From assembly GCA_947464275.1 (NCBI GenBank), contig CANHVU010000005.1, forward strand, positions 1-64,000: DNA of 64,000 nt. Direction: 5' to 3'. Both the position numbers and the translations under genes were made by a program. The first letter of the stretch is position 1; each line of letters begins with the position of its first letter. Positions 16,142-21,753 of this stretch are shown one piece after another. This DNA comes from Bacteroidota bacterium. GTDB lineage: Bacteria > Bacteroidota > Bacteroidia > UKL13-3. The notes beneath the pieces were generated by a model. It was not told the origin of the DNA, ran no database searches, and saw only the letters and a program-made list of their open reading frames with translations.

Positions 16142-16831
16142 ATGCAAAAACAATCTATCAATAAAGTAAAATTAGGAATATTTGTAGCCATAGGTGTGGC
16201 ATTATTTTTTGCAGGTATTTATTATATTGGCGAAACTAAAAAATTATTTAGTACCACCTTTAGAATAAGTGCTATGTTTAAAGATGTAAATGGTTTACAA
16301 GTGGGAAATAACGTGCGTTTTGCTGGTATCAATGTGGGTACTATTGAAGCCATTGAAATCATAACAGATTCTACCGTAAAGGTTGATATGATTTTAGATG
16401 TTACCACTCAAAAATTTATAAAAAAAGATGCCAAAGCAATTATTGGTTCCGATGGATTAATGGGTAATAAAATTATGAATGTTTCGCCCGGAACAACCGC
16501 ATTTGCTATGGTTGAAAACAATGATATGATTGGCACTACCATTCCTATTAGTTTAGATGATATGTTGCTAAAACTAAAAAACACTACTGATAATGCAGCT
16601 TTAATAACCGATGATTTGGCTGCCATTATGGGCAATATTCGCTCAGGTAAAGGAACCATAGGTAAATTATTTATGGATACTGTTTTTGCTGATAATTTAG
16701 ACAAAACCATTATCAACGTAAAACAAGGTACTAAAGGCTTTAAACAGAATATGGATGCTGCTAAAAGCAGTTTTTTATTAAGAGGATTTTTTAAAAAGAA
16801 AGATAAAAAAACTAAAAAAGACAACAAATAG
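16142..16831 (+). CDS. mlaD: MlaD-like MCE domain protein
   Basis: A 229-residue protein with one N-terminal membrane anchor (VKLGIFVAIGVALFFAGIYYIG) and an MCE/MlaD domain (about 40-125: FRISAMFKDVNGLQVGNNVRFAGINVGTIEAIEI, KKDAKAIIGSDGLMGNKIMNVSPG). The C-terminal ~70 residues are helical and end in a very basic Lys-rich tail (FKKKDKKTKKDNK). In MlaFEDB the MCE ring binds lipid between the membranes. No mlaB or mlaC is found next to it, as is usual for Bacteroidota-type sets. The minus-strand frames 16222-16407 and 16408-16857 are shadows. Confidence 0.92.
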   Translation: MQKQSINKVKLGIFVAIGVALFFAGIYYIGETKKLFSTTFRISAMFKDVNGLQVGNNVRFAGINVGTIEAIEIITDSTVKVDMILDVTTQKFIKKDAKAIIGSDGLMGNKIMNVSPGTTAFAMVENNDMIGTTIPISLDDMLLKLKNTTDNAALITDDLAAIMGNIRSGKGTIGKLFMDTVFADNLDKTIINVKQGTKGFKQNMDAAKSSFLLRGFFKKKDKKTKKDNK

Positions 16832-17193: not shown

Positions 17194-17292
17194 GCTTTGG
17201 GCTGCTGGTTTATAACCGTTGGCCTTCGGCTATTTCCTCATTGCCCAGCTGGTGCGAGCATAAACTCGTTCCAAGCAAAGAAAATAAAACCC

Positions 17293-17325
17293 AACCGCTT
17301 TAGCTAAAAACTAAAGCGGTTTTTT
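17293..17325 (+). terminator. Hairpin-T terminator (repeated element, copy 1)
   Basis: AACCGCTTTAG pairs with CTAAAGCGGTT across a 7-nt loop and is followed by TTTT. It is 100 bp after the mla-linked acidic gene and 31 bp before the Rhs-cassette ATG. An almost identical hairpin lies at 19231-19264, so it serves both as a terminator and as part of a repeated cassette boundary. Confidence 0.8.
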
Positions 17326-17355
17326 ATGTAAAAACTGTTTACTTTGAAGTATAAA

Positions 17356-18306
17356 ATGCAGTTAACCAATTTTCACTTTTACAACTCTAAAAACTACCTT
17401 TATAGCAAGCCTATAAAGGGTTTAAAAGGTTTTGGGGGGTGTTACTGCTTCGGTTTTAACGGTAAAGAAAAGGATAACGAAACTTATGGCGAAGGTAATA
17501 CCTATGACTTTGGGGCTAGGATACATGACCCTAGGTTAGGCAGATTTACGAGTTTAGATCCTCTTTGTAAACAGTTTGTAGGTGAGAGTAATTACTCTTA
17601 CGCTGGAAATAATCCAATTGCATTTGCTGACCATAAAGGAAAGAAAAAAATATATTATATTCACGTAATTGAGTTGGATGGAAAACAAACAACTTTCAAA
17701 ATTGTAGATAACAATGCTGTCAAAACAGTAATTACTTATACAAGAGAAAGTATTGGAGTAGGTAATCAAACATTATATTCAACTCAAGTTGCTAATAAGG
17801 AAACTTTTGATACCTATCAATATATCTTTATTAATAAACAAACAGGTAAACAAAATTTTGGCGAAGAGAAACAAGGTGAGAAAAGATCAAATAATCCAAT
17901 TGAAAGATGGGTTGAAGATAATTTAATAGATAAGGAAAAAAAAGGTAATTATGGAGGAATTGGTTGGATAAGTGAAACAGGAAGAGGTGAGGAAACAAAA
18001 AAGGGAGATGGGAAAAATATAGAGAATATTGATGATTTAACCAAAATACTAAACTTGACAAAATCGGCAGCTGATGAGGGTGGAGCATCAGCTTTATTAA
18101 ATTCTTTCAAGACACTTAAGGAGAAGGTTCAAAAGTTCTCTTCAAGTCAAACTGTAACTGATTTATTGCCAAAAAAAGAGGATAATAAATCACCATCTGT
18201 AGATAGCGTTATTTGTAATGGTGATGCTTGTAAAGGACAAACTGTTTCAGTAAAAGATACTTTAAAATCGCACAGTGGTCCTTATAAACCTGTAGAAAAT
18301 AAATAG
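17356..18306 (+). CDS. Orphan Rhs core/C-terminal cassette protein (Rhs 3' fragment)
   Basis: About 316 residues from ATG 17356 (a TTG at 17344 is also in frame). The first ~90 residues are the end of an Rhs/YD-repeat core: FGFNGKEKDNETYGEGNTYDFGARIHDPRLGRFTSLDP followed by YSYAGNNPIAFADHKGK. All upstream YD repeats and secretion parts of a full Rhs protein are missing. The C-terminal ~220 residues (from KKKIYYIHVIELDGKQTTF) are unlike the core and match no toxin fold I know; they are charged and Asn/Lys-rich. In Rhs systems such a variable tail is usually the effector, with its immunity gene just downstream. Here a MORN lipoprotein begins 4 bp later. This piece may be a displaced (silent) cassette, or a remnant. 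Confidence 0.8.
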   Translation: MQLTNFHFYNSKNYLYSKPIKGLKGFGGCYCFGFNGKEKDNETYGEGNTYDFGARIHDPRLGRFTSLDPLCKQFVGESNYSYAGNNPIAFADHKGKKKIYYIHVIELDGKQTTFKIVDNNAVKTVITYTRESIGVGNQTLYSTQVANKETFDTYQYIFINKQTGKQNFGEEKQGEKRSNNPIERWVEDNLIDKEKKGNYGGIGWISETGRGEETKKGDGKNIENIDDLTKILNLTKSAADEGGASALLNSFKTLKEKVQKFSSSQTVTDLLPKKEDNKSPSVDSVICNGDACKGQTVSVKDTLKSHSGPYKPVENK

Positions 18307-18310
18307 TTTT

Positions 18311-19138
18311 ATGATAAAGTTAATTTTTTATATCCAGATGCTTTTATTTTCATTTACCTATTCATCATGTAAAAACAAAAGAATTGATAATAAAAGTTTT
18401 GTTGTTGTGAGAGATAAAGACAACAATATAATTTCTGAAGTTAATTATGTTAATGATTCTATTCTGCACGGATTAGCAAAGTATTACTATATCTCACCTA
18501 TCAATACCCTAAAAGAAGAAATTGAATACAGTTTTGGCATGATGGATGGAATATATAAGTTCTACAGGAAGGATGGAACTTTAGAAAGTAAAACAACATT
18601 TAAAAGAAATTTAGCTAATGGAGAAAGTTGTTGGTTTTATGAAAACCGCAAATTGAAAAGTAAGTCTTTTTGGATAAATGGAAAGCAATATGGAGGAACA
18701 GAATTATATGATATTAATGGAAAAGTTAAACTGTATTATACTGTTGATTATTTTGGTGAAAAGTTCTTTTCAATAGATTATGACTCAATAGGCAATAAAT
18801 TAGGAGAAAAAGGGAAAACTTTTAGTGAAAACTTTGTTGTTTTTTATGAAAGTGATACAAATCAAACCCCAGTTAGTGAAAATTTTGTTTTAAAAAACAA
18901 AAAGACATTGACAAAAATAACTGTTGCCCAACCACCGAATACACGAACTGTTATTAAAATGGGAGAATTAAATAAAAATAAATTAATTCAACTCGAAATA
19001 AACAACAATACAGTTTATTATCCTAGTTTATATAATTATTCAGGAAAGGTTGCAATTGTCACTGTTGGAGAGTTAAGAGATTTAAAAGGAAATTTGTTAA
19101 AATATGATTCAGTAGTAAATAATATAATAGTCAGATAG
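18311..19138 (+). CDS. MORN-repeat (YwqK-like) lipoprotein, candidate immunity partner
   Basis: A 275-residue protein with a lipoprotein signal peptide (SFTYSSC, Cys about 20). The middle (about 50-150) shows MORN/YwqK-type repeats: GLAKYYYI, GMMDGIYKFYRKDGTLESKTTFKRNLANGESCWFYENRKLKSKSFWINGKQYG. The rest is beta-rich and unassigned. YwqK-family proteins in Bacillus are antitoxins of YwqJ-type toxins, so a role as immunity protein for the Rhs tail is a reasonable inference. The lipid anchor and the 4-bp gap from the Rhs cassette support a functional pair. It could instead be a general MORN lipoprotein. Confidence 0.78.
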   Translation: MIKLIFYIQMLLFSFTYSSCKNKRIDNKSFVVVRDKDNNIISEVNYVNDSILHGLAKYYYISPINTLKEEIEYSFGMMDGIYKFYRKDGTLESKTTFKRNLANGESCWFYENRKLKSKSFWINGKQYGGTELYDINGKVKLYYTVDYFGEKFFSIDYDSIGNKLGEKGKTFSENFVVFYESDTNQTPVSENFVLKNKKTLTKITVAQPPNTRTVIKMGELNKNKLIQLEINNNTVYYPSLYNYSGKVAIVTVGELRDLKGNLLKYDSVVNNIIVR

Positions 19139-19230
19139 TATGGGTGTACCCCTTGCTAGCGCACGAGCAAAACCAGCAACGCTAGTGCACGCCATTGGCG
19201 TGTTCCAAGCATCAAAAGAAAAACTACCCA

Positions 19231-19264
19231 AACCGCTTTAGTCAAAAACTAAAGCGGTTTTTTA
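19231..19264 (+). terminator. Hairpin-T terminator (repeated element, copy 2)
   Basis: AACCGCTTTAG pairs with CTAAAGCGGTT across TCAAAAA and is followed by TTTT. It repeats 17293-17325 at a distance of 1938 bp and lies 93 bp after the YwqK-like gene, which it may terminate. Confidence 0.78.
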
Positions 19265-19293
19265 TTTGAAAACCGCTTTATTTGAATTATTAA

Positions 19294-19428
19294 ATGCACT
19301 TAACCAATTTTCATTTTTGCAACAATAAAAACTACCTTTTTAGCAAGCCTGTAAAGGGTTTACAAGGTTATGAGGTGGGTTACCGCTTCTCCTTTAATGG
19401 GCAAGAGGAAGATGATAAGGTTTATTAG
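19294..19428 (+). pseudogene. Broken second copy of the Rhs core start
   Basis: Translated by hand, this 44-codon frame reads MHLTNFHFCNNKNYLFSKP, then VKGLQGYEVGYRFSFNGQEEDDKVY and a stop. It aligns end to end with the start of the 17356 gene (MQLTNFHFYNSKNYLYSKP, then IKGLKGFGGCYCFGFNGKEKDNETY). It ends exactly where the Rhs core would go on with GEGN. The 115 bases that follow show no further Rhs sequence, only a terminator. It is therefore a remnant left by recombination or decay. The preceding hairpin and spacer also match the first copy. Confidence 0.85.
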
Positions 19429-19493
19429 TCAAAAAATACAATGACTAACATCGAACTGATACTAATTATTGGTTTGGTGAATTTCCAAAAAAA

Positions 19494-19542: not shown

Positions 19543-21753
19543 TTATTTCAAATAATCATTAAAGTACTGATTTATTTTTTTAAATAAATGCACCCTATCT
19601 TTTCCCATTACATTATGTTCATGGGTTGGATAAACAGCATAATCAATTAAAATACCATCATCTACACATTTTTTAGCGTAGTTTAAAGTATGGTTCCAAA
19701 GTACAGTATTATCGTTAGTTCCGTGAATTAATAATAATTTTCCTTTTAAATTTTGAGTATAATTTAAAAGGTTATTTTCCTTATATCCTTCTGGATTTTC
19801 TTGTGGTGTATCCATATATCTTTCGGTATACATTACTTCGTACATACTCCAATCAATAACTGGTCCACCGGCCACACCTACTTTAAATACACCTGGAGTT
19901 CTTGTCATTAAACTTGTGGCCATAAAGCCTCCAAAACTCCAACCATAAACACCTATTTTAGTACTATCTACAAAAGCTTGTTGTTTTAAATAATTAATAC
20001 CTGCTAGTTGATCTTCCATTTCTATTTTACCCAATTGGCGATGAGTTATGTTTTCAAAATTTAAACCTCTATTAAGCGAGCCTCTGTTATCTATTGTAAA
20101 TACAACATAACCTTGTTGGGCAAATGCAAGCATCCAAAGTTCTGCTTGTCCTAACCAATTATTTGTAACCATTTGTGCATGCGGTCCACCATATAAATAA
20201 ACAATGGTTGGATATTTTTTAGTAGCATCAAAATTTGCTGGCTTAATAATTCTATAATTTAAGCTGGTAGTACCATCAGTAGAATTTAGCTTACCTAAAT
20301 TTATTTCTGTTAGTTTGTAAGAGGTTATTGGATTAGCAGCATTTAAAATAGAACCATATAAAACTCCTTTACTATCGTTTAAGAGAATTTGTCGTGGAGT
20401 ATTTATATTACTAAAATTATCTGCAATAAAAAAACCATCTTCACTTACAACAGCATTATGAATTCCTTCTTGTTTGGTATGTTGAATAATTTTACCATTT
20501 TTTATTTCTACTGAATACAAGTATTTATTCATTCCATCTGTAGAATAGGCATTAAAAAACAACTTTAAACCACTGGCATCAAAACCTACTACTTCACTGA
20601 TGTGTTGCTTGAAATTAGTTAATTGTTTTAATAGCTTCCCTCCTCTTTCATATAAATAAAAATTATTGAATCCATTGCGTTCGCTTAACCATAAAAACTG
20701 TTTTTCATTATTTTTAACAAATAATACTGGTTTTTCAGGTTCTACATATTTAGGATGAGTTTCGGTGAATAGTGTTTTAATAAATTTTCCGGTTATTCCA
20801 TCATAAAGGTTTAACTTCATTTCATTTTGTGCACGGTTAACTACTGCTATGTATAAATAATCTTCATTAGGACTCCATGATACATTAGTTAAATATTGTT
20901 CAGCAGGTTCACCTGTTTCTACTTCAATATTTCTTTTTTTCGAAAAATTATAAATTACAACTTTTACTTCATGGCTTTTTGCACCAGCCATTGGGTATTT
21001 AATGGTTTCGGTTCCCGATGGTTTGGTATCAAACTTCATTAAACTATAATCAGTAACCATAGTTTCATTCATTCTATAATAAGCTAATTTATTTCCTTTA
21101 GGGCTCCAAAAAGTTCCTTTGGTAATACCAAACTCGTTTCTATGAACAGCTTTTCCATTCACCAAGTATTCGCTGCCACTTTCCGAAATTAAATCAGATT
21201 GAAGCGTTCCTTCCTTTTTGCCACGCTTAGCCATTTCGGTTAATGCATCAATTGAAGTTGCATCGCTTACATATAATTGATTACCTACTGTATAGGCTAT
21301 TCTATTGGTTGTTTTCTCAAAATCTAAATTTTCCGCACTACCTGATGCTTTGGCTTTAATAGTAGTTTTTTTAGTTTCAAAATTGTAAAGGAATACCCCA
21401 TTATTATAGTTATAAATAATACTCGCATTATCATACCAAGTAAAAAAAGGGAATCTCTCAAACTTTGGTTCTTCTGGCAATATCCCATAAAATGAAGCAT
21501 ACAAATCTTCTACTTTTAAAATGGTATCTCTATTTATATTAGGTGTATTTATATAAATCAAAACCTCTTTACCATTTAATTTACCTACATAACTCATGGT
21601 TTTGTTATCGGGTTTCCACATTAATTGGCTGAGTCGTTCTGGGGCTAAAGTAGTTCTGCCTTTAAGTATGGCATCATCAATAGATAAAGTTTGATTTTGT
21701 GCATTTACAAAACCAACACATATAAATGACAATAATAATAGTATTTTTTTCAT
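19543..21753 (-). CDS. Dipeptidyl peptidase IV-like S9 family serine peptidase
   Basis: A 736-residue protein with a signal peptide (LLLSFICVGFVNAQ). The N-terminal ~480 residues form the DPP4-type beta-propeller (KGTFWSPKGNKLAYYRMNE, the region carrying the S9B double-Glu type motifs). The C-terminal ~250 residues are an alpha/beta hydrolase with the nucleophile in GWSFGG (Ser about 606), Asp in GTNDNTV (about 681) and His in THEHNV (about 713). S9B enzymes cleave Xaa-Pro dipeptides from peptide N-termini. It is secreted to the periplasm or beyond; no T9SS tail is seen. Transcribed alone. Confidence 0.94.
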   Translation of the reverse strand: MKKILLLLSFICVGFVNAQNQTLSIDDAILKGRTTLAPERLSQLMWKPDNKTMSYVGKLNGKEVLIYINTPNINRDTILKVEDLYASFYGILPEEPKFERFPFFTWYDNASIIYNYNNGVFLYNFETKKTTIKAKASGSAENLDFEKTTNRIAYTVGNQLYVSDATSIDALTEMAKRGKKEGTLQSDLISESGSEYLVNGKAVHRNEFGITKGTFWSPKGNKLAYYRMNETMVTDYSLMKFDTKPSGTETIKYPMAGAKSHEVKVVIYNFSKKRNIEVETGEPAEQYLTNVSWSPNEDYLYIAVVNRAQNEMKLNLYDGITGKFIKTLFTETHPKYVEPEKPVLFVKNNEKQFLWLSERNGFNNFYLYERGGKLLKQLTNFKQHISEVVGFDASGLKLFFNAYSTDGMNKYLYSVEIKNGKIIQHTKQEGIHNAVVSEDGFFIADNFSNINTPRQILLNDSKGVLYGSILNAANPITSYKLTEINLGKLNSTDGTTSLNYRIIKPANFDATKKYPTIVYLYGGPHAQMVTNNWLGQAELWMLAFAQQGYVVFTIDNRGSLNRGLNFENITHRQLGKIEMEDQLAGINYLKQQAFVDSTKIGVYGWSFGGFMATSLMTRTPGVFKVGVAGGPVIDWSMYEVMYTERYMDTPQENPEGYKENNLLNYTQNLKGKLLLIHGTNDNTVLWNHTLNYAKKCVDDGILIDYAVYPTHEHNVMGKDRVHLFKKINQYFNDYLK

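Follow-up and report, generated by a model that had tools for sequence, protein, structure and literature searches.

The locus analyzed here lies in a 64,000-nucleotide stretch of contig CANHVU010000005.1 from a Bacteroidota bacterium (hereafter the window) and consists of an Rhs-associated core with a variable tail, a putative lipoprotein gene and a truncated second copy of the beginning of the first unit. A repeat search of the window returned a single family, a direct repeat of 199 nt (17277-17475 and 19215-19413) with 81% identity between copies and a spacing of 1938 bp, in each copy of which a terminator-like hairpin is followed, after ~34 bp, by the ATG and first part of an Rhs frame. 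The duplicated hairpin-plus-core units described in an earlier note on this DNA are thus real. The features are the following:

17293..17321, no strand: terminator-like hairpin 5′ of unit 1, a generic genome repeat
17322..17355, + strand: unit 1 pre-start block, TTTGAAGTAYAAA ahead of the ATG, putatively promoter-like and conserved across almost every unit of the genus
17356..17448, + strand: unit 1 leader, codons 1-31, MQLTNFHFYNSKNYLYSKPIKGLKGFGGCYC, lineage-specific, its DNA conserved without codon periodicity
17449..17640, + strand: unit 1 Rhs-associated core (TIGR03696)
17641..18306, + strand: unit 1 variable tail, 221 aa and stop, putative effector domain
18311..19138, + strand: partner gene for a putative 275-aa lipoprotein (Cys20) that has a MORN-like repeat and is the putative immunity protein
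19230..19260, no strand: terminator-like hairpin, 3′ of the partner gene and 5′ of unit 2
19261..19293, + strand: unit 2 pre-start block
19294..19428, + strand: unit 2, a terminal remnant made of the leader and 13 core codons up to a stop
17244..19468, no strand: segment between two synteny blocks that are non-adjacent in relatives

Unit 1 is an intact 316-aa frame that runs from the ATG at 17356 to a stop at 18306 and starts 31 codons ahead of the core. The frame also opens at a TTG (17344); ATG 17356, the conserved start, is preferred since an in-frame TAA precedes the ATG in unit 2. The core scored 49.7 bits against NCBIfam TIGR03696 (Rhs_assc_core, cut-off 32.5), the match spanning residues 36-99 of the TTG-started frame and profile positions 17-75 of 76, and the partner ORF begins 4 bp past the stop, which bears out the earlier description of the first unit as a complete core and tail followed by a lipoprotein gene. 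The RHS/YD repeat shell and the N-terminal export region are absent from the unit 1 gene, where no RHS_repeat match was obtained, and what is left is the make-up of an orphan module, a core fragment with a variable tail. Unit 2 starts at ATG 19294 and stops at codon 44 (19428), directly after GQEEDDKVY. This is the GEGN position at which the second unit had been said to end, although it marks no special boundary, since the break points of other terminal remnants range from about codon 10 to 45.

The window hairpin (AACCGCTTTAG..CTAAAGCGGTT) was scored as terminator-like on both strands at both sites, and the region holds 10 terminator-like sites vs. 1.0 ± 1.0 in shuffles. It is not Rhs-specific, because it was found at ~18 places in the genome of the window, most of them away from Rhs genes, and because a second hairpin type (ACCAAAACTAATAAAGG..CCTTTATTGTTTTGGT) replaces it ahead of some units in relatives. 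At one such site, G000:C64, no cassette is present. From these sequence features we read the hairpin as a common transcription terminator; as an Rhs swap signal it was rejected in favor of a generic terminator-like genome repeat.

The tail matched no Pfam family, no NCBIfam family and no PDB sequence, and an AlphaFold model of it, based on two sequences, was unusable (pLDDT 31). The partner ORF gave a weak match to the MORN_2 repeat (23.3 bits), below the Pfam cut-off. In a search of 395 genomes, a tail profile built from two sequences matched, beyond the window, only G364 and, over a short stretch, G245, where the tail sits on a longer Rhs fragment. G364 belongs to another genus of the same family and its cassette has a different leader; its tail is homologous to the window tail (28% identity, E 6e-11), the neighboring gene is homologous to the window lipoprotein (26% identity, E 3e-12) and Cys20 of the partner is conserved. 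Homologues of tail and partner thus adjoin in G364, as in a linked, co-inherited gene pair, and this co-occurrence is the strongest argument for a functional pairing of the tail with the lipoprotein.

Among 40 relatives searched, the window-type leader and core were found in five other genomes of the genus (G002, G003, G004, G005 and G009), a sixth (G006) has cassettes with a different head, and no cassettes were found in G001, G007 and G008. The cassette-bearing relatives are, by their public names, metagenome-assembled Bacteroidetes, with some isolate names suggesting ponds and lakes. Cassettes often form head-to-tail arrays with units of about 270-355 codons spaced ~1.4-4.3 kb apart, the array on G003:C61 comprising five intact cassettes and one terminal remnant. 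Intact units measure 273-355 codons and each has a tail of its own; in the arrays G004:C10 and G004:C25, whose ORFs were listed, a separate small gene comes after most of them. All seven of the arrays with a readable 3′ end close with a unit that is leader-only or truncated early (the window, G003:C61, G003:C28, G004:C25, G002:C45, G009:C18 and G009:C87).

Leader and core have evolved differently. Across 31 units, differences per codon position were 0.209/0.193/0.254 in the leader and 0.284/0.228/0.570 in the core, and the synonymous share of single-difference codons was 34% and 79%, respectively, which, as judged from these counts, shows the core across the cassette family to be under strong purifying selection. 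When leader changes were counted once each, they fell 36/32/37 on the three codon positions, 28 were synonymous vs. 22.8 ± 4.0 expected (P 0.12), and one stop was seen vs. 5.2 expected (P 0.03). Because of these codon-position, synonymous and stop counts, we consider the leader to be conserved as DNA, with a frame that tends to stay open and a peptide without visible selection; a conserved peptide was rejected. Leaders in two other lineages likewise lack codon periodicity, making three in all. The simplest reading of this pattern would be the recent spread and homogenization of a start cap. Conservation is among the highest in the TTTGAA..AAAATG block, and by analogy with Bacteroidota promoters we take it to be a putative promoter/start region. 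All but one of the leader-bearing cassettes of the genus carry the ATG (conservation 1.00/1.00/0.97) and the conserved pre-start block, with the TTTG box just upstream. In other Bacteroidota, cassettes are joined at the identical core position, YRFxFNGKE, behind unrelated leaders, some of which lack an ATG, as is the case for most cassettes of the B1(2017) lineage. The leader also contains a 9-bp inverted repeat (CCTTTAYAG..CTRTAAAGG) whose stem seemed compensatory between units. No covariation beyond shuffles was detected in the stem (covariation score 0.073 vs. 0.088 shuffled, 89.3% paired in both) and the leader reached no Rfam family at its threshold, so a structured element was rejected as well. 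Some leaders (L060 3081-3200 and 4985-5100; L059 3636-3750 and 8660-8760) have a four-codon in-frame insertion, a short inverted repeat CCCGATACATCGGG.

Several observations point to movement of cassettes and to exchange with rhs genes. Of 27 units, 19 have their nearest leader neighbor within their own genome and 9 their nearest core neighbor, and a Mantel test found no significant correlation between leader and core distances (r 0.11, P 0.11). The histories of leader and core are therefore uncoupled, which points to repeated recombination at the seam. Two rhs ORFs of G004 (2938 and 3192 aa) have signal-peptide-like N-termini (MKKIKLIILIIFMVFINTNVWS... and MRKLLYALILLSSLLVSIQSNA...) and end inside the core at contig ends. 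The core of the 2938-aa gene is 100% identical over 126 bp to a cassette core, and another identical 126-bp core is common to a third rhs ORF of G004, a cassette and a tail contig, with the caveat that these are contig ends of a metagenome assembly with ~127-bp overlaps, for which population variants or assembly ambiguity are possible. Owing to those overlaps, the identical stretch may also exceed 126 bp. All other core pairs are at most 79% identical. On G000:C40 (L047), a leader remnant without a core was observed at 2686-2789. Over 2.8 kb, the remnant and its flank align at 93% to the end of the G004:C25 array, covering its terminal leader and 3′ flank, and in place of the single remnant of G000:C40, G004 carries three intact cassettes plus two remnants of leaders. 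It follows from this alignment that the locus has lost or gained cassettes.

The flanks of the window locus (left to 17243, right from 19469) match G004 at 92%, where they lie apart, beside other genes and with no cassette; the left flank also runs into other sequence in G003 and G006. Because the flanks are non-adjacent in relatives, we place the cassette at a rearrangement breakpoint. The genes that border the two synteny blocks in G004 lie elsewhere in the genome of the window, on G000:C41 and G000:C22, and a search there for a reciprocal junction turned up no cassette remnant. An MlaD-like protein on the left (16142-16831) is 98% identical in G003 and a DPP-IV-like protein on the right (19543-21753) is 81% identical there, and this difference suggests that the two flanks may have different histories. 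The genome of the window has one full-length Rhs gene that we could find (G000:C12, L046, 318-6773; 2151 aa). Its domains include SpvB, FG-GAP and RHS_repeat, its core diverges from those of the cassettes, and it belongs to a different class. Due to this divergence, no same-class main rhs gene was found in the genome (draft, 96.8% complete). As to the cassette swapping suggested earlier, gain, loss and exchange in relatives, seen in the arrays, the identical cores, the G000:C40 remnant opposite an array and the uncoupled leader and core, speak for it; the idea of a shared rhs locus at this site fails on the non-adjacent flanks.

Taken together, the locus is probably an orphan Rhs tail-plus-partner cassette, stranded in this genome, that would belong to a reservoir of tails and partners. 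A start cap, made up of the terminator hairpin, the conserved pre-start block, the ATG and a leader of ~31 codons, is fused at YRFxFNGKE to the Rhs core, the variable tail and the downstream lipoprotein gene, with unit 2 as the cap remnant of a neighboring cassette. The tail may act as a toxin between bacteria, with the lipoprotein as the matching immunity protein. Cassettes would serve as a reserve that supplies new tails to full-length, exported rhs genes, which would take them up through homologous recombination across the core. The cap would permit independent transcription and translation of the cassette, at least enough to keep the partner made. Here the cassette seems stranded, at a rearrangement breakpoint in a genome where no same-class full-length rhs gene was found.

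The best-surviving alternative, which we nonetheless consider unlikely, is a stand-alone gene pair that is no reserve at all and works as an intracellular toxin-antitoxin-like module or is exported by an unknown route. The conserved ATG with its upstream TTTG box and the scarcity of leader stops fit such a pair, and Salmonella Rhs tails made from internal promoters do act as toxin-antitoxin modules (PMC7043789). However, the leader peptide is without visible purifying selection, no secretion signal was seen on inspection and most B1(2017) cassettes lack the leader ATG. It is less probable still that both units are leftovers of a decaying array, retained by chance, the graveyard of the earlier note. 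The broken unit 2, the synteny breakpoint, the further leader remnant at G000:C40 opposite an array in G004 and the absence of a detected same-class full-length rhs gene would agree with decay, but the frames of unit 1 and its partner are uninterrupted for 316 and 275 codons, the family core is under strong purifying selection (79% of single-difference codons synonymous) and tail and partner are co-conserved in another genus. Because the 17356 frame is intact and has the conserved start, decay applies to unit 2 alone. The leader as a structured DNA or RNA site dedicated to a recombinase or regulator is hardly credible, as its conservation as DNA without codon periodicity in three lineages and its inverted repeat are set against stem covariation no higher than in shuffles, no Rfam family at threshold, terminal units that break at varied positions and unrelated leaders in other lineages.

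The stranded-cassette reading can be compared with known systems. Orphan Rhs in Salmonella recombines with the main gene and is without translation initiation (PMC3967940). A core fragment, a variable C-terminal tail and a downstream partner gene are common to the orphan rhs modules of Salmonella and E. coli (PMC3967940, PMC3150448, PMC7043789) and to the cassettes described here, as would be exchange with full-length rhs genes through the core, which we propose from sequence. In contrast to the start-less Salmonella orphan (PMC3967940), the leader-bearing cassettes of the genus, all but one, have an ATG and a homogeneous leader, and unlike the Salmonella and E. coli orphans they form arrays of up to five intact cassettes that close with a leader-only remnant. 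Polymorphic toxin systems include standalone cassettes with immunity genes, and the passages of PMC3482391 that deal with them describe the same toxin-then-immunity order and recombination onto a constant 5′ gene body; a lineage-specific start cap at a fixed core point, as seen here, is not described in those passages.

While the best-studied orphan Rhs cassette, that of Salmonella, is start-less, this family from uncultured Bacteroidota has a common start cap, and because cap history is separate from core history, sequence alone suffices to follow the replacement of caps and the exchange of tails. Provided that the cassettes are made, many partner proteins would be ready without deployment of the matching full-length weapon. 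More tentatively, and with rather less than even confidence, Bacteroidota lineages may have independently evolved short start caps, homogenized per genome, to which incoming blocks of Rhs core, tail and partner are attached at a single fixed point, so that each spare warhead would be separately expressible. On G004:C10 (L063; 12078-13658 and 16113-16331), a serine-recombinase-like gene lies between cassettes, and a variant leader (MRTSNYTFLYPKNYLYSKPVKGL) heads the cassette at the end of the contig. A link of the cassettes to a mobile element is possible on account of this gene and leader. Matches in phage and plasmid collections were at the core level only, in one phage record and seven Bacteroidota plasmids.
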